From: Verrucomicrobiota bacterium
GTDB taxonomy: Bacteria; Verrucomicrobiota; Verrucomicrobiia; Verrucomicrobiales; Verrucomicrobiaceae
Reading direction: 5' to 3'
DNA length: 64,000 nt
NCBI GenBank assembly: GCA_025360015.1
Contig: JANYCZ010000045.1
Coordinates: 1-64,000, forward strand
The notes under the pieces are model-generated. The model saw nothing but the letters and a program-made list of their open reading frames with translations, searched no databases and was not told the origin of the DNA. The translations under genes and the position numbers were made by a program. Position 1 is the stretch's first letter, and each line of letters begins with the position of its first letter. Shown here piece by piece: positions 25,064 through 38,644 of the stretch.

Positions 25064-26170
25064 TTAGTTTGAGCCCTGAGCCCCCGCCGCCTGCGCAGGC
25101 AGCCTTAGCCGGCAGCAGACGCAGGTGCCGCCAGCGCTGCGAGGTGTGATTTCAAAGGTCGCCCCCACGCTCTGGGCTCGGTAGCGCATGGTGCGCAGGC
25201 CCATGCCTGCGCCTGCGAGCGACTTGCCTGCGCCCATGCCCACGCCGTTGTCTTCCAGACGCAGTTCCAGCACATCGCCCAGCCGGTTCAAGACGATGAT
25301 GATTTCACGGGCGCGGCCGTGCCGCACCGCGTTGGCCAGCGCCTCCTGGGCGATGCGATAGAGATGCATGGCCGCCTTGGGGCAGTCGATGTGGATCTTG
25401 CCGTTCTCCTGGACTACGATGGCGACGCCGGTCAGCCTGCTGGTGTTGGCCGCGAGCTCCTTCACGGCGACGGAGAAACCGAACTCATCCACATGCATCG
25501 GGGAAATGCCACGGGCGAGATCACGCGCATCCGCCACCGTCTGCTGCACAGACACCTCCACCAGGGAGGCATCCTGCGCCACCGGCAGCTTCAGCGAGTG
25601 CAGTTCCTCTGCCAGCGAATGCACAGCGCAGCCGATGGCCGCCAGTTGCTGGCAGAGACCGTCGTGGAGATCTTGGCCGATGCGCTGCTGCTCATGCTCG
25701 CTGACCTGGATGATGTCCAGCTCGAGCTGGCGGCGCTCCTCCAGCATCCGAATGTGGGACGCGTCAGCGTCCTGCTTGCTGCGCACGGCAGCCACGGCAA
25801 ACACGAGCACACAGAAGTAGAACTCTCGGTTGAGCATGGCCCAGGCATAGCCCATCTGTGTCGCATAGGGGTGGGTGTCTTTGTTTGCCACCCACCACAC
25901 CCCGCCGGCCACGATGGCAACAAACAGCCCCCCGCGGGCACCTGACCACCAGACGGCCAGAATGATGGGCAGCGCGTAAAAGATAAACCAACTGATCTCC
26001 CAACCGGTGATGTTGTCCAGCCAGCCAAGAGACACCGTGAGCAGCACGGGCATTAAAAGGGAAAGCCAGAGAGGACTGGCGCGCATTTTGACGGTGAGGC
26101 TGCCCGAACGCATTCTGAAGGGCAAAGGCAGCGGCCAGAACTCCGGGCTGTTCAAAGCGATGTCGCTCAT
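25064..26170 (-). CDS. NarL-type sensor histidine kinase, orphan
   Basis: The 368-residue product has four hydrophobic helices between about 34 and 130, then a HisKA_3-type dimerisation segment with phosphoacceptor His169 in HEQQRIGQDLHDGLCQQLAA. A HATPase domain follows, with N-box IAQEALANAVRHGRA, LEDNGVGMG and GAGMGLRTMRYRA. The catalytic part is complete. It is closely similar in layout and motifs to the kinase at 30411-31523 but has no response regulator beside it, so it may signal to that regulator or to an unlinked one. The input signal is unknown; the sensing part is membrane-embedded with little periplasmic sequence. Confidence 0.92.
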   Translation of the reverse strand: MSDIALNSPEFWPLPLPFRMRSGSLTVKMRASPLWLSLLMPVLLTVSLGWLDNITGWEISWFIFYALPIILAVWWSGARGGLFVAIVAGGVWWVANKDTHPYATQMGYAWAMLNREFYFCVLVFAVAAVRSKQDADASHIRMLEERRQLELDIIQVSEHEQQRIGQDLHDGLCQQLAAIGCAVHSLAEELHSLKLPVAQDASLVEVSVQQTVADARDLARGISPMHVDEFGFSVAVKELAANTSRLTGVAIVVQENGKIHIDCPKAAMHLYRIAQEALANAVRHGRAREIIIVLNRLGDVLELRLEDNGVGMGAGKSLAGAGMGLRTMRYRAQSVGATFEITPRSAGGTCVCCRLRLPAQAAGAQGSN

Positions 26171-27657: not shown

Positions 27658-29622
27658 TCACCTCACCCCGCCTTTTTCAGCCAAAGAAACTTTGGCCTCC
27701 TCGATGAACTTGAGAAGCTGCGGGTCTTCCGGCTGGGCGCGGGCGGCGTGCTGATAGTGATCAAGGGCGCGATGCGGCAGGCCGGTTTGGTAATAGACGA
27801 GGCCCAGGGCCTTGTGCGTCTGCGGGTCGTCGGGGATGGTGGTGAGGATGTCGCGGAAGACGGCTACGGCATCATCGTATCTGCCCACACCCGCGAGGCT
27901 GAGGCCCAGAGTGAAGGCCACCGGCGGCCTGGCGGTGGCGGTCTTGTCCATGTTGATGAGCTGCAGGGTGGTGTCCAGCGCCTCCTTGGGGCGGTTGAGC
28001 CTGAGCAGTGAATTAGAGAGATTGAGCAGCCCATTTTGAAAGCGCGGCTCGACTTTGAGCGCCTCGCGGAAGCATTTCACCGCCTGTTCGTTCTTCCCCG
28101 CGTCGGAGTAGGCCGCGCCCAGATTGCCCCAGGTGCGATATTTGCCGGGACTCTTGGCCACGGTGTCTTCCCAGAGGCTCTCACGCGTGCGCCAGACATT
28201 GTTGCGGATGCAGGTTTTCCAGGACAGGGCACTGAGGCACAGGAGTGCAAACACCGGCACACCCACGCGGAGCACAGCGGGACGCAGGCTTCTGCTGCGC
28301 AGCCGGTCCAGCAGGCAGGCCACCAGGATGAAGATGCCGATGGAGGGCAGGTAGGAGCGATGCTCCGCCACGAGATCTGGCAGCGGCACCAGCCCTGATG
28401 ACACGAAGAGAGTGAGGAAAAACCACACCACGCAGGCAAAGCCCAAAACAAAACGCACATCCCCACGGAAACGGCGGAACAACGCCCAGGTGGACAGCAC
28501 CAGCCCGCCCAAGACCGCCACCGCCAGCAGCACCGGCCCTTGAAAGAGCGATCCATAAATCGGCCATTCCGGATCGAGGTTCAATCCATTGGGCCAAAAC
28601 AACTGCCGCAGGTAGTGCGTCATCACCGTCAGTTCGGTCACGATGTAATGCCAGTGATGCAAGGGCGCATCCCGCGAGTTCACAATGTTCACGGCGGCGT
28701 GCATGTCATAGCCGCCGTGCTGCGCTGCGGCAGTCAGAAACACGAGCAGCGGTATGAGCGGCATGCACAGCAGCAGCGGCAGCGCCCTGAGAAGTGCGGC
28801 CCGCAGCCGTGTGCCGACCACCAGCCAGTCCAGCAGCAATGCCAGCAGCGGCACCACGCAGGCGTCTTCCTTCGTCTGCATGGCCAGGAGTACCGCGACC
28901 ACCGCCCCGCCACGCAGCAGCCCCCTGCCCCACGGTGACCGCATGTAGGCAGAGGCAAAATACAGGCTCAGGCTCAGGAGTGAAAACAGCACCACCAGCG
29001 AGGTGAAGCGCTGGATGATGTAGGTCACGGATTCCGTGGCAAGCGGATGCACCGCAAACAGCAGCGCCGCAGTGGCGGAGATGAAGAGCACGGAGCCGCG
29101 CTGCAACTGAGCGGCCAGCACGGAGCGGCAGAGCAGCAAATTTACCAGCGCGTAGATCAGGATCGAATTCAGGGCGTGAATGGCGATGTTCACGAGCCGG
29201 AACCCGTGCGGATTGAAATCATCCAGCAGGTAGTTCAGGTGAAAACTCGCGTAGGCGACCGGGCGCAGGATGGCATTGACGGCATAGTCAGGATCGGTCC
29301 CAATTTTCAGCGGACGGTTCGCGAACTCGTCGAAGTTTTTCAGATAGTCGAAGTTGCTGGCGTCGCGGAAAAAGGGGTTGTCCTTGAGATACGTGTGGTC
29401 GTCAAACGCCATGGGGAAGTCGGCCGTCCAGACATACAGACCGGCACAAAGGCCCGCCAGCACAACTGTCAGAACAGCGTGGACCCAAAGCCGGGATACT
29501 GATGAAGTCTGCCCGGGCGTTTCCGCCAGCGCAGGTGATGGCATGGCATCGACAGCAGGAGTCGTTGCAGGCCGTACCGCATGTCTTTCTTTGGGGTGTT
29601 TTTTGCGGCTGCGTTTTGGCAT
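27658..29622 (-). CDS. TMTC-like multi-pass membrane protein with TPR repeats
   Basis: The 654-residue product has a basic N-terminus, about eleven hydrophobic helices to about residue 450, and at least four tetratricopeptide repeats at about 475-640 (GNLGAAYSDAGKNEQAVKCF, ALGLVYYQTGLPHRALDHYQ). The first extramembrane loop contains DDHTYLKDNPFFRD, like the acidic catalytic loop of O-mannosyltransferase/TMTC proteins. That suggests a polyprenol-phosphate-sugar-dependent glycosyltransferase, but I can only infer it. It lies downstream of the glycan operon ending at 29737 yet is separated by a strong terminator at 29688-29712, so it probably has its own promoter. Confidence 0.78.
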   Translation of the reverse strand: MPKRSRKKHPKERHAVRPATTPAVDAMPSPALAETPGQTSSVSRLWVHAVLTVVLAGLCAGLYVWTADFPMAFDDHTYLKDNPFFRDASNFDYLKNFDEFANRPLKIGTDPDYAVNAILRPVAYASFHLNYLLDDFNPHGFRLVNIAIHALNSILIYALVNLLLCRSVLAAQLQRGSVLFISATAALLFAVHPLATESVTYIIQRFTSLVVLFSLLSLSLYFASAYMRSPWGRGLLRGGAVVAVLLAMQTKEDACVVPLLALLLDWLVVGTRLRAALLRALPLLLCMPLIPLLVFLTAAAQHGGYDMHAAVNIVNSRDAPLHHWHYIVTELTVMTHYLRQLFWPNGLNLDPEWPIYGSLFQGPVLLAVAVLGGLVLSTWALFRRFRGDVRFVLGFACVVWFFLTLFVSSGLVPLPDLVAEHRSYLPSIGIFILVACLLDRLRSRSLRPAVLRVGVPVFALLCLSALSWKTCIRNNVWRTRESLWEDTVAKSPGKYRTWGNLGAAYSDAGKNEQAVKCFREALKVEPRFQNGLLNLSNSLLRLNRPKEALDTTLQLINMDKTATARPPVAFTLGLSLAGVGRYDDAVAVFRDILTTIPDDPQTHKALGLVYYQTGLPHRALDHYQHAARAQPEDPQLLKFIEEAKVSLAEKGGVR

Positions 29623-29687
29623 TGCTTCAGGGGTTTAATTCCGAAGCGTACTTTGCCCTGCAATGGCCCATCCCAGCAAATAACACA

Positions 29688-29712
29688 CCCTGTGGTGTCA
29701 CACACCACAGGG
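29688..29712 (-). terminator. Strong hairpin closing the glycan/two-component operon
   Basis: CCCTGTGGTGT-CAC-ACACCACAGGG forms an 11-bp perfect stem with a 3-nt loop, 24 bases downstream of the response-regulator stop on the minus strand. The following GTGTGTTATTTG is a modest T-rich tail. It is the strongest hairpin I found in the window. Confidence 0.8.
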
Positions 29713-29736: not shown

Positions 29737-30414
29737 TTAAGCACCGTGGTCGCGCACCCACTGCCCGGCACGCAGATAGAGCTCCGCCGCGCTGCGAAGC
29801 TGCAGCTTTTCCTTGATGCGGGCGCGATAGGTTTCCACCGTGGATTCACCCAGATTGAGCGTCTGCGCGATCTCGCGCGTGCTCTTGCCACGGCCAAGCA
29901 TTTGAAACACTTCGAGTTCACGATCTGCGAGGGTTTCCATGCCGGCCAATTCGCTGTTGCCGCGCTTCTGCGTCATGCGCTCCAGCAGCTTCGCCGTCAT
30001 CTGCCGGCTGGCGTAGACATCGCCCTTCATCACGCAGCGGATGGCTTCGATCACCTCGGTGGAGGCTTCGTTTTTGGTGATGTAGCCCTTGGCACCGGCA
30101 CGCAGGGCGCGCTCGGCGTAGAGTTCCTCATCATGCATGGAGAGCACGAGCACATTGACGTCCAGCCCCTGGGCCTTGATATCCTTGAGCAGTTCCAGTC
30201 CGCTGGAGCCATGCAGGGTGATGTCCACAATGGCGATGTCAGGCTTGGTCTCCAAGATCAGCCGCATGGCGTCGCGGATGTTGTCCGCCTCCCCGCAGAT
30301 GGACATGCCGAGGTCACGGTCAATGAGCTGTCCCAGATGCTCGCGGAACATGGGATGGTCCTCCACCAGGAGCACCTTGTAACTGTTCGCTGTTTTTAAT
30401 TCGTTTTTCTTCAT
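29737..30414 (-). CDS. NarL/FixJ-type response regulator
   Basis: The 225-residue product has a receiver domain with VLLVEDHPMF (Glu18, Asp19) and phosphoacceptor Asp64 (DIAIVDITLHGSSG), then a LuxR/NarL helix-turn-helix near 155-215 (LADRELEVFQMLGRGKST, REIAQTLNLGESTVETYRAR). It should bind DNA as a dimer after phosphorylation. It starts inside the stop of the kinase gene (ATGA), so the two are made together. Target genes are unknown; the operon itself is a natural candidate. Confidence 0.95.
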   Translation of the reverse strand: MKKNELKTANSYKVLLVEDHPMFREHLGQLIDRDLGMSICGEADNIRDAMRLILETKPDIAIVDITLHGSSGLELLKDIKAQGLDVNVLVLSMHDEELYAERALRAGAKGYITKNEASTEVIEAIRCVMKGDVYASRQMTAKLLERMTQKRGNSELAGMETLADRELEVFQMLGRGKSTREIAQTLNLGESTVETYRARIKEKLQLRSAAELYLRAGQWVRDHGA

Positions 30415-31523
30415 GGGTTTTGAGATTTTTTGAACTGGTCCAGCGGCACGCTGCAGAGAACGCGCGTGCCTCCCTGGCTCCGGGGCTCGACTGCGAGGCC
30501 GCCGCGCAGCGCCTGCGTACGGTAGTACATGGTGCGCAGGCCCATGCCGTCGTCCGGCCGGTCTGCCACGGCGGGCATGCCCCGGCCATTGTCGTCCACG
30601 CTGAGCTCCAGCCGGCCGTCTGTGATCTTGGTCGCGATGGTGATCTCCGTCGCACCGCTGTGCTTCACAGCATTGGCCACCGCCTCCTGGGCGATGCGGT
30701 AAAGATTCATGGAGACTTCCGGCGCATCCAGCGGCACGTCCACGCAGTCCTTCACCACGATGGGGATGCCTGTGAGGCGGCTGGTCACCTTCCCCAGATC
30801 CTCCAGCGACGCCGCCAGGCCGCTGCGGTCCACATGCACGGGAAAGATGCCGCGCGCGAGATTGCGCGCCTCCAGCACCACCTCCTGGAGAGAGGTCTCG
30901 ATCAAGCTGGCGTCATGCGCGGACTGCACGCCCTGCGCCTGCAGATCCTCCGCCAGCACGCGCGCCGCGCAGCCGATGGCCGCGAGCTGCTGGCAGATGC
31001 CGTCATGCAGATCCTGGCCGATGCGCTGCTGCTCATGCTCGCTGACGCTGACGATGTCCTTTTCCAGCTGCCGGCGCTCCTCCAGCATGCGAATGCGCGC
31101 CGCGTCCGTCTCATGCTTGTTGCGCAGTGCGGAAACCGCAAACACCAGCGCACACTGGTACACCAGGCGGTTCACCAGTGTCCAGACGTAGCCCTGCGCC
31201 GAAAGCCGGGTTGTGCTCATGTTCGCCAGCCACCAGACCACGGCGGAGAGGAGCGCAATGAACATCCCCGGCTTGTTGCCAGCCCACCATACCGCCAGGA
31301 AAATGGGCACCCCGTAGAAGATGAGCAACGTCACCTGAAAGCCGGTGATGTAATCCAGCCAGCCGATGCCCAGAACGATGACCGTCATTATCACGATCGT
31401 CAGCCACATCGACTGGCTGCGCATCGTTTCCGTGACTCCCGACCACAGCTTTGACCGCTTTCTGCCTGCGTCCTGCGACAGGCTGGTGGTGATCGGGGGG
31501 CTGGGGCTGCTGGTGGCATTCAT
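30411..31523 (-). CDS. NarL-type sensor histidine kinase in a glycan operon
   Basis: The 370-residue product has four hydrophobic helices at about 38-135, dimerisation helix with His173 in HEQQRIGQDLHDGICQQLAA, and a HATPase domain with IAQEAVANAVKHSGAT and DDNGRGMPAV, ending GMGLRTMYYRTQAL. I chose the ATG at 31523 because it overlaps the stop of the upstream ketoisomerase as ATGA; an ATG five codons earlier is also possible. It is the fifth gene of a six-gene overlapping operon and a near relative of the orphan kinase at 25064-26170. The signal is unknown. Confidence 0.92.
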   Translation of the reverse strand: MNATSSPSPPITTSLSQDAGRKRSKLWSGVTETMRSQSMWLTIVIMTVIVLGIGWLDYITGFQVTLLIFYGVPIFLAVWWAGNKPGMFIALLSAVVWWLANMSTTRLSAQGYVWTLVNRLVYQCALVFAVSALRNKHETDAARIRMLEERRQLEKDIVSVSEHEQQRIGQDLHDGICQQLAAIGCAARVLAEDLQAQGVQSAHDASLIETSLQEVVLEARNLARGIFPVHVDRSGLAASLEDLGKVTSRLTGIPIVVKDCVDVPLDAPEVSMNLYRIAQEAVANAVKHSGATEITIATKITDGRLELSVDDNGRGMPAVADRPDDGMGLRTMYYRTQALRGGLAVEPRSQGGTRVLCSVPLDQFKKSQNP

Positions 31524-31972
31524 GGCATTGATTTCCATTCTTTTACCATACCCTTAAACTCATTGTAATCACGAATGTAATCCGCTGGTTCATACGGGTG
31601 CGAGGCCAGCACCAGGAGCACCGAGTCGACGGAATGCAGGTGCTCCCGCGCCCATACCAAGGGCGGCACCAGCACGCCATGGGTCGGCCGGTTCAGGCAG
31701 AACTCCTCGCGGTTCTCCCCATCATCCACGCAGAGGTGGCACTCCCCATGCACGCAGATCAGAAACTGCGCGCACTGCCGGTGGGCATGCTCCCCGCGCG
31801 TGCTTTCCGAAGGGATCCCGTAGGTCATGAAGATGCGCTGCGGCACAAACGGCAGGTCCTGGTTGAACTCCAGCGCCGCCAGATTCCCCCGCACACTGTC
31901 CACCACATGGCGCAGATCAAACAGGCGCACCCCGCGCACCGTGCAGTCTTCAATGGTGGTCTCGTGGATCAT
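31520..31972 (-). CDS. FdtA-type cupin sugar 3,4-ketoisomerase
   Basis: The 150-residue cupin matches the FdtA/QdtA/WxcM C-terminal family. Telling pieces are LFDLRHVVDSVRGNLAALEF, RIFMTYGIPSESTRGEHAHR (catalytic His of GEHAHR) and CQFLICVHGECHLCVDD. These enzymes shift the keto group of dTDP-4-keto-6-deoxyglucose to carbon 3, ready for a 3-aminotransferase. A DegT-type aminotransferase is three genes upstream. The start overlaps the GT2 stop by four bases and the end overlaps the kinase start. Enzymes for dTDP-4-keto-6-deoxyglucose itself (RmlA, RmlB) are not in the window. Confidence 0.87.
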   Translation of the reverse strand: MIHETTIEDCTVRGVRLFDLRHVVDSVRGNLAALEFNQDLPFVPQRIFMTYGIPSESTRGEHAHRQCAQFLICVHGECHLCVDDGENREEFCLNRPTHGVLVPPLVWAREHLHSVDSVLLVLASHPYEPADYIRDYNEFKGMVKEWKSMP

Positions 31973-32928
31973 GCGGAAAGGGGTTGTGCATGGGTCATCA
32001 AAGTACGCACCAGGGACTGCGGCTTGCCGGAGACGGTCATGAAAGCACGGCCGACATACTCGCCGATGAGCCCGAGCATCAGCAGTTGTGCACCGCTGAA
32101 AACTGCCAACGCCCCCATCAGCGATCCCCAGCCGAGCTGCCGCTGCCCCACGAGGCAGGTTTCCAGCACCACTTCCGCCAGCACCACCGCGCCCAGTGCG
32201 CAGAGCAGCCCGCCCAGCACACTGGCCAATCGCAGCGGCATGACGCTGAAATCAAAGAGGAGGTTCATCGCCAGGCGGATCAGCTTGCGCGACGTGTACC
32301 CGCTGCTGCTGCCGCTGCGCTCCACATGAGCCACCTCCAGCGTGGCGATGCGGTTGGTGGCCCCGAGAATGAGCCCATCAATGTAGGGGTAAGGACCGCG
32401 ATAGAGAACGATGCGGTCAATCAATGAGCGCCGCAGCGCGCGGAAGCTTGAGAGGTAGAGGTCGCTCGGCTTGCCCAACAGAAAGACCGCGCAGCGGTTC
32501 ACCAGCCAGCTCGCTGCATTGCGCGCCCAGTGATGCTGCTTTTCCACATAGCGCGAATACACCACCTCGGCCCCGGATTCACGCAGGTGCTGCAGCAGTC
32601 TGACCGCTTCAGCGGGCGGATTCTGCAGATCATCATCCAGATTCACCACGTATTCCCCACGGGCACGGCGGTAGCCTTCCAGCACGGCGGCGTGCTCGCC
32701 AAAATTGCGCGCCAGCTCCACCAGCGTCACCGGCATAGGAAAATCCGCAACCATGCGCGTCGCCGTCATGAAAGTCGCGTCCGTGCTGCCGTCATCCACC
32801 AGCACCAGTTCCCAGCTTTCCGGCAAAGACAAAGCGCGGAAAGCCTCCAGCAACGGACGCAGGCCGGGACCGGTGTTGTACAGCGGCACCACAAAGCTCA
32901 GCCCCGGTGCAGCTTCAGTATCTGCCAT
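31969..32928 (-). CDS. GT2 polyprenyl-phosphate glycosyltransferase (GtrB/DPM1-like)
   Basis: The 319-residue product is a family 2 glycosyltransferase. The N-terminal GT-A fold starts LSFVVPLYNTGPGL and contains LVLVDDGSTDATF and NLDDDLQNPP, the nucleotide-sugar and metal motifs. Two hydrophobic helices near the C-terminus anchor it in the inner membrane, as in GtrB and ArnC, which load a sugar on undecaprenyl phosphate. The ATG at 32928 has GGAGGG upstream and overlaps the methyltransferase end by 14 bases. I infer it transfers the amino sugar made by its neighbours. Confidence 0.88.
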   Translation of the reverse strand: MADTEAAPGLSFVVPLYNTGPGLRPLLEAFRALSLPESWELVLVDDGSTDATFMTATRMVADFPMPVTLVELARNFGEHAAVLEGYRRARGEYVVNLDDDLQNPPAEAVRLLQHLRESGAEVVYSRYVEKQHHWARNAASWLVNRCAVFLLGKPSDLYLSSFRALRRSLIDRIVLYRGPYPYIDGLILGATNRIATLEVAHVERSGSSSGYTSRKLIRLAMNLLFDFSVMPLRLASVLGGLLCALGAVVLAEVVLETCLVGQRQLGWGSLMGALAVFSGAQLLMLGLIGEYVGRAFMTVSGKPQSLVRTLMTHAQPLSA

Positions 32929-33691
32929 CTGGCTTCCCTCCGGCAGGCAGTTGGATTTTGCGCGCGACGGCAAAGACCGAAGACCCAAATGGCAGGCGAA
33001 ACTCACGGCACATCTCCGCATCCACCCGGCCCATGCCCGCGAGCATCCAATGCATCCAGCCCGGAGTCAGCGCCAGGTCCGACCCCGCCGCAGCACGGCT
33101 GCCTTTCAGGCGGCTCAGGTGCCGCCACACCAGCAGCGGCAGAAACAGCCAGGCATTCCAGTAATGGATGTTTTCAACCACAAACCCGCAGCGGTCCAGC
33201 AGCGCCCGCACTTCACCTTCGGCATAGCGCCTGGCACCGCTGACAGCCACGTCATGGGCGCCGCGCAGCTCCTCAAACGCAGGCAGGTTCAGCACCAGCA
33301 GGCCATCCGGTCGCAGCACGCGGGCCATTTGCACCAGCGCCCGATCATCACTCACCCCGGCATGATAGAGCACATCCAGGCTGAGCACGGCATCAAAGGC
33401 GGCGTCGGCAAACGGCAGCGCCTCCACCGAGCCGAGCTGCACGCTGGCCAAGCCACGCTGGTGGCAGTGGCTCACCGCCGCGTCCGCAGCATCGACGCCC
33501 GTCATTTCCAGATCGCCGTTTTTTGCCTGCAAAAACTCCAGCATGCCGCCAGTGCCGCAGCCGGCGTCCAGCAGCCGTGCACCCGCTGGCAGTCTGCCTG
33601 ACAGAGCGTTCACCACCAAACTGCGCAGCACCGCATGCCACCAGTGGCGGTCCTCCACCGCCCGCATGAGATCATATTCAGCGGCCTGCAT
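32915..33691 (-). CDS. Class I SAM-dependent methyltransferase
   Basis: The 258-residue product carries the SAM-binding motif LLDAGCGTGG (residues 40-49), acidic motif VDAADAA and a post-motif ALPFADAAFDAVLSLDVL. The opening YDLMRAVEDRHWWH is common in methyltransferases near lipid-linked sugar genes. Since it is between a 3-aminotransferase and a glycosyltransferase, N- or O-methylation of the sugar is a reasonable guess; sugar N-methyltransferases of antibiotic pathways follow the same order of steps. It overlaps both neighbours by 14 bases. The start at 33691 was chosen by fit to the family and overlap. Confidence 0.82.
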   Translation of the reverse strand: MQAAEYDLMRAVEDRHWWHAVLRSLVVNALSGRLPAGARLLDAGCGTGGMLEFLQAKNGDLEMTGVDAADAAVSHCHQRGLASVQLGSVEALPFADAAFDAVLSLDVLYHAGVSDDRALVQMARVLRPDGLLVLNLPAFEELRGAHDVAVSGARRYAEGEVRALLDRCGFVVENIHYWNAWLFLPLLVWRHLSRLKGSRAAAGSDLALTPGWMHWMLAGMGRVDAEMCREFRLPFGSSVFAVARKIQLPAGGKPDGRY

Positions 33692-34808
33692 GATCCAACG
33701 CCTCCATGACATCACACACGGCATCCACCGCCCCTTCGGACAGGCAGGGATGCAACGGCAGTGAGATGACTTTTTCGGCGGCTCTTTCCGATTCCAAGAG
33801 CGACACGTGGCTGCCACCAAAGGCAGGCTGCCGGTGCAGCGGCAGCGGGTAATGCACCGCCACCGGGATCTGAGCCTCCTGCAGATGCTGCCTCAAATCA
33901 TCCCTGCGTTCACAACGCACGACGTACTGATGATAAGCATGCTCGCACCCGCCACGCACCAGCGGCAAAGTCACTACCGCGCTGCCTCGCAGCCTGGCAT
34001 CATACTCCGCCGCCAGCTTCCGCCGTTGCTGAATGTTTTTGGAAAGTGACCCCAGCTTCACCCGCAGCACCGCCGCCTGCAGCTCATCCATGCGGCTGTT
34101 CACGCCGGCATGCTCGCTGATGTAGCGCTGCCTCCAGCCGTACTGACGGATCATATGCAGGCGCTCCGCCAGCGCGGCATCATTCGTGACCACCGCACCG
34201 GCATCTCCCATGGCCGCCAGATTCTTCGTGGGATAAAAGCTGAACGCCGCCGCCCGGCCCAGCGTCCCCACCATGCGCCCCTGCCAGCGGGCCCCATGCG
34301 CCTGCGCGCAGTCTTCCAGCAGTTCGATGCCGTGCTCATCGGCCACCTGCTGCAGCCTGCCCCAGTCCGCCGGATGCCCATACAAATGCACGACCACCGC
34401 CGCCTTCACGCAGCGCCCCTGCGGAGAGCGCAGCAGGGCGTCCAGCGAGACAGGACAAAGCGTGAAGGTGGTCGGCTCGATGTCGGCAAACACCGGCTCC
34501 GCACCACTGCGTGCCACGCCTGACGCCACCGCCGAGGGGGCAAAAGCCGGCACCACCACCTTGCTGCCCGCACCGATCTTCAGCGCCCGCAGCATCAGCT
34601 CGATCGCATCCGTGCCGTTCGCCACACCGACCACCTGCGCCGCGCCCAGAAAAGCGGCAAACTCCGTTTCGAAAGCCGCCACCTCAGCACCTAGAATGTA
34701 GCTGCCACTGTCACACACGCGCTGCAGTGCGCCCGCCAGTTCAGCGCGATGCGCCCGCTGATCCGACTGCGGATAGAGCACTGACCAGGAATTTGAGGAA
34801 TATGACAT
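33678..34808 (-). CDS. DegT/DnrJ/EryC1-family sugar aminotransferase
   Basis: The 376-residue PLP enzyme belongs to the DegT family. The PLP lysine is Lys195 in FSFYPTKNLAAMGDAG, with LEDCAQAHGA at about 164-173 for cofactor contact. In FdtB-type pathways this enzyme aminates a dTDP-3-keto sugar made by an FdtA-type ketoisomerase, and that enzyme is in the same operon. The gene is the first of the six-gene overlapping operon. Upstream, 34809-35004 must hold the promoter; GGTGG directly precedes the ATG. The exact sugar is not determined by sequence. Confidence 0.88.
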   Translation of the reverse strand: MSYSSNSWSVLYPQSDQRAHRAELAGALQRVCDSGSYILGAEVAAFETEFAAFLGAAQVVGVANGTDAIELMLRALKIGAGSKVVVPAFAPSAVASGVARSGAEPVFADIEPTTFTLCPVSLDALLRSPQGRCVKAAVVVHLYGHPADWGRLQQVADEHGIELLEDCAQAHGARWQGRMVGTLGRAAAFSFYPTKNLAAMGDAGAVVTNDAALAERLHMIRQYGWRQRYISEHAGVNSRMDELQAAVLRVKLGSLSKNIQQRRKLAAEYDARLRGSAVVTLPLVRGGCEHAYHQYVVRCERRDDLRQHLQEAQIPVAVHYPLPLHRQPAFGGSHVSLLESERAAEKVISLPLHPCLSEGAVDAVCDVMEALDHAGR

Positions 34809-35004
34809 CCACCATTTTCATCCCCGACACATTTGTCGCAAATAACGCTACGCGTGGCGGAAAATGCCACACTGGGTAAATGCCTCGCCTAGCAGCAGGC
34901 GGTGAGTTCTTTGCAGGACTCTTATGCGACTCGGTCAGCGTGCAAGAAAAACCGCGAAATCATGAAGGCAGATATGATTTTCATTTCCGCAGCGATCATC
35001 TTCC

Positions 35005-36309
35005 CTACAGCAGCCCGCCGGCCTTCACGTCGAGATATTTGTTGGCCAGCGCCACGGGGAGCATCTGCGCGGATTCATCCACGGTGAGTACGCGGCGGGC
35101 GCGCAGGGATTCCATCAGCTTGCGGCGCTCGCCGAAGTAATGGGTCAGCGCGCCGTATTGCAGCGCATCATGCAGGTGGTCGATAGGGGCCGCCGCGCGC
35201 TGCTCCAGCTCCTGCTCGCGCAGGGTGGCGGTGAGGACGAGATGCCGCTTCTGCATGGCACCGACGGCAGAGACCAGCGTGGCACCGTCTTCGCTGCGGA
35301 GATTGGTCAGCAGGATCACCAGCGCCCGCCGCTTTTGCAGCGTCATCACGCGTTCTGCGGCCTCGATGAAGTCGCTGGGCTCGCTGCTGGCCTCGTAGTT
35401 GTAAAGGTGATTGAGCAGCTTCGGCATGCTGTGCGCGCCTTTCACCGGCGGTAGCCAGCGCTGCACGCCGCCAAAGCCCACGACACCCACTTCATCCCCC
35501 TGCCGCAGGGCGATGAAGGCGATCAGCAGCATGGCATTGAGGCAGTGGTCAAATTGGCTGAGCCCGCCGTCCAGCGCGCGCATGCGGCGGCCGCAGTCGG
35601 GGACGAGCAGGATGGTCTGATTGCGCGTCTCTTCGTAATCACGGCTCACGAGCATTGAGCGGCGGGAGGTGGCCTTCCAGTCGATGCGGGAAAGCACATC
35701 GCCGTCCTGATAGTCGCGCAGTTGATGGAAATCGAGGGAGGCCCCCATGCGGCGGCGTTTGATGATGCCCATCTGCTCCACGCGGTTGGCCATGGCCAGC
35801 ATGGCAAAGCGCACCACGGGCTCGTAGTTTGGATAAGCACGCGTCTGGCTCTCTCCTGCGATGAAATGCAGCCTCCGCCACAGGCCCAGGGCTGAATGCA
35901 CCAGTACATGCGCTGGGGTGAAGGCATGCTGCCCACGGCGCACAAAGCGCGCCTCATAGGAGATCGCGGCAAACTCACCCGCAGGGATGCTGACACGATG
36001 AGGCAGACCTTCGGCCTCGGCTGCGGTGGGAATGCCGTCAAACACCTCCAGCGTCAGCGTGCGCCCGGCAGTGTGCGTCACCGTCAGCGTCACGGAAGAC
36101 CCCACGCTCAGGGCAAAGCGGCCCGGCAGCGAGCGCTGGCCGGTGATGCGCCCGCGCCGTGGCAGCGTGCAGGCATCCACCAGCAAGAAGAGCAGCAGCG
36201 CTCCGCCGCCGATCTGCCAGACGAGAATGAAGCTGTCCCAAAGACATGCCGCCACCGCCAGGACGAGCCAGGCGATGAAGAGTCGGAGCAACAGGGCGGT
36301 CGGGCGCAT
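35005..36309 (-). CDS. DUF58 domain protein with two membrane helices
   Basis: The 434-residue product starts with two hydrophobic helices (about 5-25 and 29-45), then a DUF58 domain with FHQLRDYQDGDVLSRIDWK and SRRSMLVSRDYEETR. The VWA metal site that is DASGS in the other DUF58 protein of this window is here PDCGRRM, so it is degraded. This larger type is the normal partner of MoxR in RDD/SpoIIM/DUF4129 clusters. I chose the ATG at 36309 (MRPTALLLRLF) because it precedes the first helix. It is the last gene of the operon, ten bases after MoxR. Confidence 0.9.
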   Translation of the reverse strand: MRPTALLLRLFIAWLVLAVAACLWDSFILVWQIGGGALLLFLLVDACTLPRRGRITGQRSLPGRFALSVGSSVTLTVTHTAGRTLTLEVFDGIPTAAEAEGLPHRVSIPAGEFAAISYEARFVRRGQHAFTPAHVLVHSALGLWRRLHFIAGESQTRAYPNYEPVVRFAMLAMANRVEQMGIIKRRRMGASLDFHQLRDYQDGDVLSRIDWKATSRRSMLVSRDYEETRNQTILLVPDCGRRMRALDGGLSQFDHCLNAMLLIAFIALRQGDEVGVVGFGGVQRWLPPVKGAHSMPKLLNHLYNYEASSEPSDFIEAAERVMTLQKRRALVILLTNLRSEDGATLVSAVGAMQKRHLVLTATLREQELEQRAAAPIDHLHDALQYGALTHYFGERRKLMESLRARRVLTVDESAQMLPVALANKYLDVKAGGLL

Positions 36310-36319
36310 GAAATTCAAA

Positions 36320-37351
36320 TCAGACGCGGGGAGCCTCGATGGTCTTGAGCAGCGAGTTGAGCATGTCATCCACGCTCTGGCCGCTGATCGCGATTTCCGG
36401 CGCGAGCTGCACGCGGTGGCGCAGCACGGGCAGCACGGCGCGCTTCACATCTGCCGGGGTGATGTAGCCGCGCCCTTCCAGCAGCGCGTAGGATTTCGCG
36501 ATGCGCACCAGGCTGATGGCCCCGCGCGTCCCAGCACCCAGCGAGATGGCGCTGTGCTGGCGCGTGGCACGCACGATTTTCACCGCGTAGTCCACCACCT
36601 GCTCCACCGCCTGCACGGCGGCGGCTTCTTCCTGCGCAGCGAGGATGTCCGCCGTGGTACAGATCTGCGGCACCGACTCGGTGGAAAGGCCGCCCCCTGC
36701 AGCCCGGGATGAGACGGCCTTCACGATCCACGTCTCGTTCGCCACATCCGGGTAGTCGATGAGCACCTTGAGCAGGAAGCGGTCGAGCTGCGCCTCTGGC
36801 AGCGGGTAGGTGCCCTCCTGTTCAATGGGATTCTGCGTGGCAAAAGTCATGAAGGGCGGCGTGAGCACGTGGCTCTCACCATCAATCGTCACCTGCGTTT
36901 CCTGCATCACTTCGAGCAGCGAGGACTGCGTCTTGGCCGGCGCGCGGTTGATTTCATCTGCCAGCAGCAGATTGGCAAACACCGGGCCACGGCGCACGCG
37001 AAAGGTGCTGCTGCTCATGTCAAAGAGCGTGTGGCCGCAGACGTCGGAGGGCATCAGGTCAGGCGTGAACTGGATGCGGCGGAAGGTGCCGCCAAAGGTG
37101 TGTGAGAGGGCCAGCACGAGATGCGTCTTGCCCAGGCCCGGCTTGCCTTCCAGCAGCACATGGCCGCCCGCCAGCAAAGCAGCGAGGACTTGGAACAGCA
37201 CCTCCTCCTGCCCCACAAACACCTGGGCCACGGCCGCGTGGATCTTCCGGAAAATCTCCGTGCTGCGTGGCACGGACGGCGGCGCAAAACTGCCGGGTGG
37301 CGGCGGCGTGTAGAGGCTGGAGACGTCAGGTTCAGGGAGGAGCGGATTCAT
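36320..37351 (-). CDS. MoxR-family AAA+ ATPase (second copy)
   Basis: The 343-residue product has a proline-rich N-terminus, Walker A GKPGLGKT at residues 69-76, Walker B LLLADEINR and sensor segment ATQNPIEQEG, PLPEAQLDRF. It resembles the MoxR at 10443-11444 but belongs to a different subtype, as the partner genes differ. It probably remodels the DUF58 or other VWA-like protein encoded next to it. It lies 18 bases after the DUF4350 gene and 10 bases before DUF58. Confidence 0.92.
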   Translation of the reverse strand: MNPLLPEPDVSSLYTPPPPGSFAPPSVPRSTEIFRKIHAAVAQVFVGQEEVLFQVLAALLAGGHVLLEGKPGLGKTHLVLALSHTFGGTFRRIQFTPDLMPSDVCGHTLFDMSSSTFRVRRGPVFANLLLADEINRAPAKTQSSLLEVMQETQVTIDGESHVLTPPFMTFATQNPIEQEGTYPLPEAQLDRFLLKVLIDYPDVANETWIVKAVSSRAAGGGLSTESVPQICTTADILAAQEEAAAVQAVEQVVDYAVKIVRATRQHSAISLGAGTRGAISLVRIAKSYALLEGRGYITPADVKRAVLPVLRHRVQLAPEIAISGQSVDDMLNSLLKTIEAPRV

Positions 37352-37369
37352 GGAGGTGAGGGTGAGGAT

Positions 37370-38644
37370 TTAAAGCGCGCGGCGGATGGCCTGGAGATCG
37401 CGCATGAGATTGACGAAGTTGTGGGCGCTGTCTGGAGTTGACACGTCGAACGCGGCGGAGACGCGCTTGGCAGCAAGCCCGGTGCGGCGGGAGATTTCTT
37501 CGGCGAGCTGGTCGTTCATCTGCCGACTGCCGTCGTCCAGCGAGCGGTGGCGCTCACGCACCCGCTCCCATACGGCCTCACGCGCGGCATTCACCAGCAG
37601 CGGACTGCGCCGCATGCGCCAGAAGAACTCCCCCAGCGCGCCGATATGGCTGGCAAAATGGCGCGTGGAGTCCAGCTCCACCTCTGCCAGCGGCCCAAAG
37701 CGAGGCATCTGCTGCCAGAGCCAGAAGACGAGGCACAGCGCCAGCGTGACCACGGCCATCCAGCCATGCTGCCAGAGCAGCCCGAAGAAGCTCCCCGTCA
37801 TGGTGGAGACAAACAGCACCTCCTTGCCGCCACGCTCCCCCACCAGCGCCGCCAGCCAGCGCGCATGATCGTGCTCGCCGATCCAGTGATTGCGGAAAGG
37901 CCGTGCATGCGCCAGCAGCGTGACGCTGCCCATGCCATGCTGCAGATGCAGCGCCTGCGACTCGTTCTTGGACCCGGCCGAGAACTCGCCCGGCCGCAGC
38001 TTGCGCTTGAGCACCATGCTGCGATAGCCGCCGAGGCTGAGATGGTAGGCCCTGCCATTCCATGCGACATCCTGCTCGGACTCCAGCCAGGACACATCAT
38101 GCCGGTCTCCGTCCTCGTCGTCCTCCTCATCCGCAGCGGGTTTGTTTTCGTCTTTTTTCCCCGACTCTTCGCCATGGAATTTTTCCAGGGTGTCATTGCT
38201 CGCATCCTCCCGGACACGCTTTTGCACACCGACACCGAGCTGCTCCAGCACGGGGTCCTTCTGCTCCTCCAGCAGGATGGCGGAAATGAAGGCGCCATAC
38301 TGCGTTTCAAAATCATTGTAGGGCCGTGTGCCGTCCAGAATGTAGATGAGGTGCCCGCCGCTGAAGGTCCAGCGCAGGAGCTGCCTGGCCCGCGCCTCCG
38401 GCAGGCCGCCTTCACCCGAGATGAAAATCACCGCGTCATGCCCGGGCATTATCCCCAGCGACTTCGCTTCATGGGCGTTGTGCCCGAGCTCATCCAGCAG
38501 CCGCTCCGCCGCGAGGAAGGGCTTCACCCGCGCCTTGCCTTTGAAGCCGGTGGTTTTTTCCACCTCCTCCCACTTGCCGTCCCAGCAGCCGCAGAGAAGC
38601 AGCATACCAGAAAGTGCCATGAAGGCGCGGATGGAGTGCGTCAT
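37370..38644 (-). CDS. DUF4350-type membrane lipoprotein
   Basis: The 424-residue product starts MTHSIRAFMALSGMLLLCGC, a lipoprotein signal with Cys18 or Cys20 at the cleavage point. A DUF4350-like domain follows (GLPEARARQLLRWTFSGGHLIYILDG), then a very acidic linker (DEEDDEDGD), then a transmembrane helix near 290-310 (GWMAVVTLALCLVFWLW) and a C-terminal cytoplasmic-type segment. DUF4350 is a regular component of the MoxR/DUF4129 cluster; its function is unknown. The start ATG shares one base with the stop of the preceding DUF4129 gene, so the two are translationally coupled. Confidence 0.82.
   Translation of the reverse strand: MTHSIRAFMALSGMLLLCGCWDGKWEEVEKTTGFKGKARVKPFLAAERLLDELGHNAHEAKSLGIMPGHDAVIFISGEGGLPEARARQLLRWTFSGGHLIYILDGTRPYNDFETQYGAFISAILLEEQKDPVLEQLGVGVQKRVREDASNDTLEKFHGEESGKKDENKPAADEEDDEDGDRHDVSWLESEQDVAWNGRAYHLSLGGYRSMVLKRKLRPGEFSAGSKNESQALHLQHGMGSVTLLAHARPFRNHWIGEHDHARWLAALVGERGGKEVLFVSTMTGSFFGLLWQHGWMAVVTLALCLVFWLWQQMPRFGPLAEVELDSTRHFASHIGALGEFFWRMRRSPLLVNAAREAVWERVRERHRSLDDGSRQMNDQLAEEISRRTGLAAKRVSAAFDVSTPDSAHNFVNLMRDLQAIRRAL

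Follow-up and report, generated by a model that had tools for sequence, protein, structure and literature searches.

The DNA stretch analyzed here (64,000 nucleotides, positions 1 to 64,000 of contig JANYCZ010000045.1 from a Verrucomicrobiota bacterium of the family Verrucomicrobiaceae; the whole stretch is hereafter called the window) carries a minus-strand locus, in which amino-sugar enzymes, a lipid-carrier glycosyltransferase, a sensor kinase, a response regulator and a TMTC-like membrane protein are encoded one after another. This locus probably forms an autoregulated two-component circuit, which controls how a 3-amino-dideoxy sugar is made, linked to undecaprenyl phosphate and passed on by a GT-C enzyme. 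An element of approximately 36 bp is located upstream of both the first gene and the TMTC gene and, judging from its sequence and distribution, is most likely the binding site of the regulator. It was detected in 33 of the 39 family genomes that carry the regulator, and in none of the 29 that lack it. What was computed directly from the genomes is the order and conservation of the genes, their co-occurrence and the element that they share, and the promoter logic is well supported by this comparison; the sugar, its acceptor, the methyl position and the signal are what we infer.

Gene Organization of the Locus

The features of the locus are as follows (window coordinates).

33678..34808, minus strand: DegT-type sugar aminotransferase, first gene (PF01041, E 1e-102; solved relatives include WbpE and QdtB)
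32915..33691, minus strand: S-adenosylmethionine-dependent class I methyltransferase (PF08241)
31969..32928, minus strand: GT2 polyprenyl-phosphate glycosyltransferase of ArnC/GtrB type (PF00535; hydrophobic segments within 223–288 by hydropathy estimate)
31520..31972, minus strand: FdtA/QdtA-type dTDP-6-deoxy-hexulose 3,4-ketoisomerase, a cupin (PF05523, E 2.5e-47)
30411..31523, minus strand: sensor kinase (HisKA_3 and HATPase_c; apparently four transmembrane helices joined by short loops, without an extracytoplasmic domain)
29737..30414, minus strand: NarL/FixJ-type response regulator (Response_reg PF00072 and GerE PF00196)
27658..29622, minus strand: TMTC-like membrane protein of GT-C and TPR type (some 10 hydrophobic segments; the first loop has the DD motif)
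25064..26170, minus strand: HK2, a kinase paralog without an adjoining regulator (49–52% identical)
34838..34873, minus strand: diverged copy of the predicted regulator element, 29 nt before the DegT start, conserved in the genus
29676..29711, minus strand: predicted regulator element upstream of the TMTC gene, holding most of the hairpin at 29688–29712

A first-pass annotation of this DNA had proposed a six-gene unit from DegT to the regulator. The open reading frame (ORF) coordinates agree with it, giving overlaps of 14, 14, 4, 4 and 4 nt along the six genes, and its domain calls (DegT, methyltransferase, GT2, FdtA, kinase and regulator) were confirmed by Pfam matches. The kinase has a second in-frame ATG at 31538, 15 nt earlier than 31523, and may start there, by which the overlap with FdtA becomes 19 nt. 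The unit does not end at six genes; judging from gene order, the TMTC gene (27658–29622) is part of it, because a TMTC-like gene comes next after a kinase–regulator pair in 25 of the 31 genus members with the regulator and in 7 genomes of four other genera.

The annotation had also described an 11-bp hairpin as the terminator of the unit. The hairpin is present as described (29712–29688; 11 pairs, 3-nt loop, −17.0 kcal/mol), but its role as the end of the unit was not borne out: the tail past it, TGTGTTATTT, makes a weak T-tract, and the stem is conserved in some relatives but not in general. Predicted stem energies over 33 TMTC sites range from −17.0 to −0.9 kcal/mol and reach −11 or lower in 7 of them, including G041 (−16.6) and G050 (−16.0; labels with G, L and C denote genomes, loci and contigs), whereas the element that contains the hairpin persists among relatives. 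A terminator was therefore set aside as the main role of the hairpin, which is better read as part of the conserved promoter element.

A Shared Element Upstream of the Operon and the TMTC Gene

Alignment of the DegT and TMTC upstream regions of the window revealed the pattern GTGGY-N7-RCCAC-N9-TATTTG common to both. In the host genome (G000, 6.6 Mb), this pattern, which is post hoc in that it was derived from the same two sites, has two perfect matches (exactly the DegT and TMTC sites) and seven with two mismatches but none with one; the reversed control gave 20. A motif search in the regions that precede 35 TMTC genes, with coding sequence excluded, yielded CGCGACAGGGCATGTCTTTT, whose extended consensus is TGTGGCG-N5-CGYNACA-N5-TGTC-N-TTTGC (~36 bp). 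A position weight matrix (PWM) was then constructed from 33 TMTC sites, with two of the 35 upstream regions (scores 9.2 and 12.4) dropped. Even without the training sites of G000, G041 and G047, this matrix ranked the TMTC site first (29.7 bits) and the DegT site second (13.7 bits) among 127,930 window positions, followed by a next-best score of 6.0.

Scanning of the 915,647 bases of fetched loci with the PWM gave 86 matches above 11 bits, consisting of 35 at TMTC genes (the training set), 18 at DegT genes, 18 at GT2 genes (most of them inside the methyltransferase gene), 6 at kinase genes and 9 others, several of which precede DegT, TMTC or kinase genes missed by gene calling (G028 and G002). 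The 18 annotated DegT promoters lie outside the training set; the loci hold 35 DegT genes in all. In G048, a genome in which neither FdtA nor GT2 was found, the element is 169 nt upstream of the kinase gene, which also speaks for the proposed regulation. The consensus pattern was also searched in the 68 family genomes, allowing up to two mismatches, which gave 52 matches versus 4 for the reversed pattern. A regulator gene is located within 6 kb of 48 of the 52; of the other four, one precedes DegT on a contig fragment, one a TMTC gene and one a membrane-protein gene in G044, and the last is within a gene. The G044 site (L183, 6241–6276) is located about 100 nt upstream of a gene for a 737-residue membrane protein with a spermine-synthase-like domain, on a contig other than that of the locus, and this gene is possibly an extra target of the regulator.

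Other candidates were tried for the element and rejected. A sigma-54 site (GG-N10-GC at the TMTC sites) was dropped, as the second G is often T, the site is absent at DegT genes, and the regulator has no AAA+ domain. A pattern that combined a DegT-like spacing with a TATTTGC box failed to find most of the TMTC sites in relatives. The upstream regions of 12 kinase genes gave no convincing shared motif.

In many relatives a further copy of the element lies inside the methyltransferase gene (e.g., in relatives of L100 and L101). Among the 27 scorable methyltransferase genes that stand beside two-component genes, 15 scored 17.8–36.7 bits and 12 scored below 12 bits; five scorable genes from other loci gave at most 10.0 bits, and three more have no GxRRY motif. 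Since the internal match usually brings in Cys codons that are absent from those five genes, an operator seems to have been overprinted on the methyltransferase coding sequence. The methyltransferase gene of the window has no such copy (score −10.1). Separate promoters, which the first-pass annotation had named as evidence against a single unit, are thus found in part: a separate copy of the element stands before the TMTC gene, and in many relatives, though not in this window, another lies within the methyltransferase gene.

Conservation of the Locus

The survey covered 288 genomes of the order, of which 68 belong to the family, 48 of these to the genus of the window, and 220 are outside the family. 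With cut-offs of E ≤ 0.001 for FdtA, 1e-60 for the regulator, 1e-50 for the kinase, 1e-60 for GT2 and 1e-20 for the N-terminal part of TMTC, the numbers of family genomes with a match were 43, 39, 41, 41 and 36, respectively. The best match of the regulator is 64–99% identical in 38 other family genomes. Within the genus, the regulator was found in 31 genomes and FdtA in 27 of these 31; FdtA never occurred without the regulator, and the remaining 17 genomes have neither. Kinase and regulator directly follow FdtA in all 27 genus genomes with both, so that this adjacency is shared by 27 of the 31 genomes with the regulator, which speaks against a chance arrangement in the window. The other four are G047, in which GT2 adjoins the kinase–regulator pair and FdtA was not found, and G032, G048 and G054, which have the pair with neither FdtA nor GT2 found (G032 and G048 on short contigs). 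TMTC directly follows the regulator in 25 of 31; the exceptions are G028 (TMTC upstream of GT2), G030 (TMTC on another contig), and G032, G037, G048 and G054 (none or fragments). A TMTC gene upstream of GT2 was also observed in G026 and G050 (contig C388). Over the whole family, the TMTC N-terminal part was found in 36 of 39 regulator-bearing genomes versus 0 of 29 regulator-lacking ones (G054, counted among the 36, has only fragments).

The 4-nt overlap of GT2 and FdtA also occurs in several other genera. Such coupling by translation does not extend to the sensor in general, because the FdtA–kinase junction varies among relatives from an overlap to more than 100 nt. Relatives with two-component genes apart from the glycan genes, the other kind of evidence that the annotation had named against its proposal, do exist: in seven genomes of four other genera (G002, G003, G004, G009, G010, G062 and G063), the kinase–regulator pair is separated from FdtA–GT2. 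A TMTC-like gene nevertheless follows a kinase–regulator pair in all seven, and the methyltransferase precedes the pair in three (G002, G003 and G004); G002 has two further pairs without an adjoining TMTC. The coupling of glycan and two-component genes is hence refined, not refuted, by these genera.

Two side observations were made on the neighborhood. Genes for DUF58, MoxR-like (named by inspection) and DUF4350 proteins occupy 35005–38605 of the window, upstream of DegT on the same strand with the DUF58 gene ending at 35005, and stand beside the operon in several relatives. In other genera, a different large membrane protein is often encoded upstream of DegT or the methyltransferase, as represented by clusters c18 (five loci: L064, L071, L073, L075 and L077) and c21 (four loci: L062, L064, L078 and L079). 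In most of these proteins there are 7–9 hydrophobic segments, the first of them followed by an acidic D-D/H-W motif; by the hallmarks of GT-C enzymes, these features suggest candidate alternative GT-C transferases; no Pfam family matched the one member of each cluster that was scanned.

Sugar Enzymes and Lipid-Carrier Transferase

The FdtA protein matched PF05523 (WxcM-like cupin) with 160.4 bits against a cut-off of 23, and aligned with the solved FdtA structure 2PA7 (E 2e-28) such that its GEHAH corresponds to GFHAH, preserving the HAH motif. The histidines of this motif belong to the active site of FdtA. The first of them is N in the 2PAE chain, so this position was varied by the depositors. 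By these similarities, FdtA probably isomerizes a dTDP-6-deoxy-hexulose toward a dTDP-3-amino sugar; in the FdtA/QdtA family the products are Fuc3N or Qui3N. The solved relatives of DegT include 2OGA, a DesV-type transaminase. RmlB was found above cut-off elsewhere in the genome (contig C22). The methyltransferase, for which the annotation had suggested methylation of the amine, has 44 solved matches of mixed kinds (best E 2e-11), which do not settle its substrate. Residues 7–310 of the 319-residue GT2 aligned with ArnC (9BHC, E 3e-41), including the C-terminal transmembrane region, and ArnC and GtrB sll0501 are its best solved matches; these similarities support the earlier proposal that it may load the sugar on undecaprenyl phosphate. 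With 157.2 bits against the ArnC equivalog model NF007986 of NCBIfam (cut-off 529), it is ArnC-like and not ArnC. The proposal that the amino-sugar enzymes FdtA and DegT are coupled to the two-component system was also supported.

The TMTC-like Protein

Motifs of the TMTC family were identified in the N-terminal membrane part, their equivalence to the published motifs being judged by eye. D74-D75 (the DD motif in the first extracytoplasmic loop), R120-P121 (RP, M2), K251-E252 (KE, M4) and D350 (Asp of EL4, M5) are invariant in 34 sequences, and E420 and Y424 (E-Y of EL5, M7) are almost invariant in a 12-row N-terminal alignment. The RxD motif (M3) is not kept, as its by-eye equivalent has R205 but T207. 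The DD, RP, KE and Asp motifs are related to the binding of lipid-linked sugar and metal in PMC7801869. A TPR tail is present in all 34 members. Because the motifs are kept except for RxD, without a match to a solved structure or a named GT-C family, the window protein is best described as TMTC-like. It is the probable final glycosyltransferase of the unit, as the annotation had suggested, and is strongly tied to the unit by adjacency and by co-occurrence with the regulator. In G009 (L088, 116–8409), four tandem TMTC-like genes follow the kinase–regulator pair, with a strong element at three and a weak one at the fourth.

Kinase, Regulator and HK2

The HisKA_3/HATPase_c kinase adjoins the Response_reg/GerE regulator, and this adjacency is conserved. 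In the predicted kinase structure, a model of moderate confidence with a predicted local distance difference test (pLDDT) score of 66, the membrane helices span residues 39–60, 65–81, 84–101 and the start of 109–196, the last extending into the cytoplasm; hydropathy at a strict threshold found only two of these four. No Pfam family matched this sensor part. Since the four modeled helices are joined by only 2–7 residues, the kinase would sense within the membrane, i.e., be of the intramembrane type.

HK2 and its copies in G037, G041, G047 and G059 make up a single clade (support 100/100); they are located less than 9 kb from the regulator gene except in G037, where HK2 is on another contig. In G037 (L044, 2512–2943), the operon kinase is reduced to residues 4–143 and 333–370 by an internal deletion, and the TMTC N-terminal part was not matched. 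As the regulator of this genome is still 95% identical and HK2 is intact, HK2 may feed the same regulator as a possible second input.

Proposed Circuit and Alternative Readings

In the proposed circuit, the intramembrane-type HisKA_3 kinase would read the state of the membrane or the lipid carrier and phosphorylate the NarL-type regulator. The regulator would then bind the inverted repeat TGTGGCG/CGYNACA together with the fixed-spacing TTTGC box, immediately before both the first gene of the operon and the TMTC gene, so that kinase, regulator, sugar enzymes and transferase would rise together in a positive feedback. FdtA and then DegT would convert dTDP-4-keto-6-deoxyglucose into a dTDP-3-amino-3,6-dideoxyhexose, which is probably methylated, and the ArnC-like GT2 would load the sugar onto undecaprenyl phosphate. 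Finally, the TMTC-like GT-C enzyme would move it to an extracytoplasmic acceptor, most likely a protein. Binding of the regulator to the element, activation, and the reading of membrane or lipid-carrier state by the kinase are steps that we infer. A fuller version is offered only tentatively: TMTC-type general O-glycosylation of secreted or surface proteins with a methylated 3-amino-3,6-dideoxy sugar, under a dedicated two-component circuit that amplifies itself, an intramembrane kinase that reads the undecaprenyl-phosphate or membrane state, and an ancestral kinase–regulator–TMTC circuit that captured the amino-sugar operon, already in existence, by gaining an operator before it and inside the methyltransferase gene.

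Several observations weigh against this proposal. The DegT site of the window scored 15.4 bits with the full PWM, lower than the 36.4 bits of the TMTC site. Six regulator-bearing family genomes have no pattern match; weaker PWM matches were found in G028, G032, G034 and G048 and none in G037 and G054. The 15 glycan loci without adjoining two-component genes gave no PWM match above 11 bits, although some of them have no DegT upstream region. The genomes are related and no correction for descent was made, so that Fisher values such as 1.2e-13 overstate independence. Outside the family, the element was found in 1 of 220 genomes versus five reversed-control matches, and only G080 of the eight regulator-bearing genomes has it; the claim that links element and regulator is limited to this family because the other seven have no match. 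As to the transferase, the TMTC N-terminal profile found no PDB match up to E 5, Pfam gave neither TMTC_DUF1736 nor a named GT-C family (full table for the window protein; 25 of 46 families seen for all members), the structure model is poor (pLDDT 48), and extra off-locus TMTC-like genes in G003, G016, G024 and G049 have no element match. In G080, the element (L174, 10816–10851; 35.0 bits) is 1.7 kb from the regulator with no TMTC nearby, and about 230 nt upstream of an ORF of at least 2639 residues, which we guess to be a giant surface protein from its size and a LEPR-type motif; no Pfam family exceeded the cut-off in its first 800 residues.

The two-component genes might instead be passengers, a regulator of wider role lying in a glycan operon by chance, and the shared element might then be that of a sigma factor or of some different regulator. 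The stronger conservation of the regulator in near relatives (95–99%) than of the kinase (68–78%) and GT2 (80–85%) fits this explanation, as do its separation from the glycan genes in four genera and the seven element-free genomes outside the family. It nonetheless seems unlikely, given that the element follows the presence of the regulator within the family, lies near a regulator gene at nearly all of its sites, and marks a TMTC gene adjoining the pair even in the unlinked genera. Still less likely is that the hairpin is a true intrinsic terminator and TMTC a separate unit: the stable stem, predicted also in G041 and G050, is set against the weak T-tract, the loss of the stem in many relatives where the element persists, and the co-occurrence of TMTC with the regulator. 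In the window, the hairpin could serve both roles.

Whether the acceptor is a lipid or polysaccharide (lipid A or O-chain), as in the Arn pathway, deserves more weight, and we regard it as a plausible but lesser possibility. GT2 is closest to ArnC, and ArnT is given in PMC7801869 as by far the best structural template for the TMTC family. The TPR tail of every member, on the other hand, fits a protein partner, and proteins are the substrates that PMC7801869 and PMC11292533 give for the TMTCs of eukaryotes. It is somewhat doubtful, too, that the element copies inside the methyltransferase genes are coding sequence only. They sit at the protein motif GxRRY, and 12 of the 27 two-component-adjacent genes, that of the window included, scored low; the high scores of the other 15, the low scores of the five genes elsewhere and the Cys codons usual at the matches argue for an operator. 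With the autoregulated circuit retained as the preferred reading, the operon looks like it was recruited to the regulator by gaining the binding site of the latter.

Comparison with Known Systems

In parts the unit functions like PmrAB–Arn or Pgf, yet it belongs to neither. It shares with PmrAB–Arn (the lipid A aminoarabinose system) two-component control, an undecaprenyl-phosphate amino sugar, an ArnC-type GT2 and GT-C transfer. It differs in the probable dTDP-3-amino route via FdtA instead of UDP-Ara4N, in the NarL/HisKA_3 type of its two-component proteins (OmpR type in PmrAB), in the TMTC-like transferase with TPR, and in having sensor and regulator inside the biosynthetic operon. The GerE-type regulator and the different enzymes of the unit place it outside PmrAB–Arn, arnA not having been searched for genome-wide, and the arrangement is new relative to that system. 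The Pgf protein-glycosylation genes of Streptococcus mutans (PgfS–PgfM1–PgfE–PgfM2; PMC5856776) likewise combine a related GT2 with PMT-type membrane proteins in one operon. The operon is described in the consulted part of that paper without two-component or FdtA/DegT genes and with another transferase, and the window GT2 scored 105 bits against the Pgf-related model NF047588, under its cut-off of 500.

The O-mannosyltransferases TMTC1–4, as described in PMC7801869, likewise combine a membrane part at the N-terminus, to whose DD, RP, KE and Asp motifs the window protein was aligned by eye, with TPR repeats at the C-terminus. The window protein differs in having no TMTC_DUF1736 match, in not keeping RxD, and in a donor that is probably an amino sugar. 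The FdtA/QdtA–FdtB/QdtB routes of S-layer and O-antigen synthesis share the isomerase and a 3-aminotransferase-like DegT, whereas the unit genes include a methyltransferase instead of the FdtC/QdtC acetyltransferase. Intramembrane-sensing kinases of the LiaS/VraS/DesK type resemble the window kinase in HisKA_3 and in a short transmembrane sensor with, by the model, no extracytoplasmic domain; the four-helix sensor of the window kinase differs in matching no Pfam family.

Significance

To our knowledge, little is known about the regulation of protein or envelope glycosylation in bacteria. Among the papers listed by the literature searches, from a collection without most subscription papers, none has a title or abstract opening that concerns such a system in Verrucomicrobiota or describes the present one. 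The coupling is stronger than the first-pass annotation could see, and the unit boundary and the hairpin were misread there. A single locus brings together a sensor, a regulator, a candidate target site, a sugar pathway and a transferase, and dozens of natural variants exist in which it is fused or split, its kinase is broken, or its operator appears overprinted in coding sequence. The same predicted wiring appears to recur in many related species, and the locus with its variants opens circuit, sugar and acceptor to direct tests.

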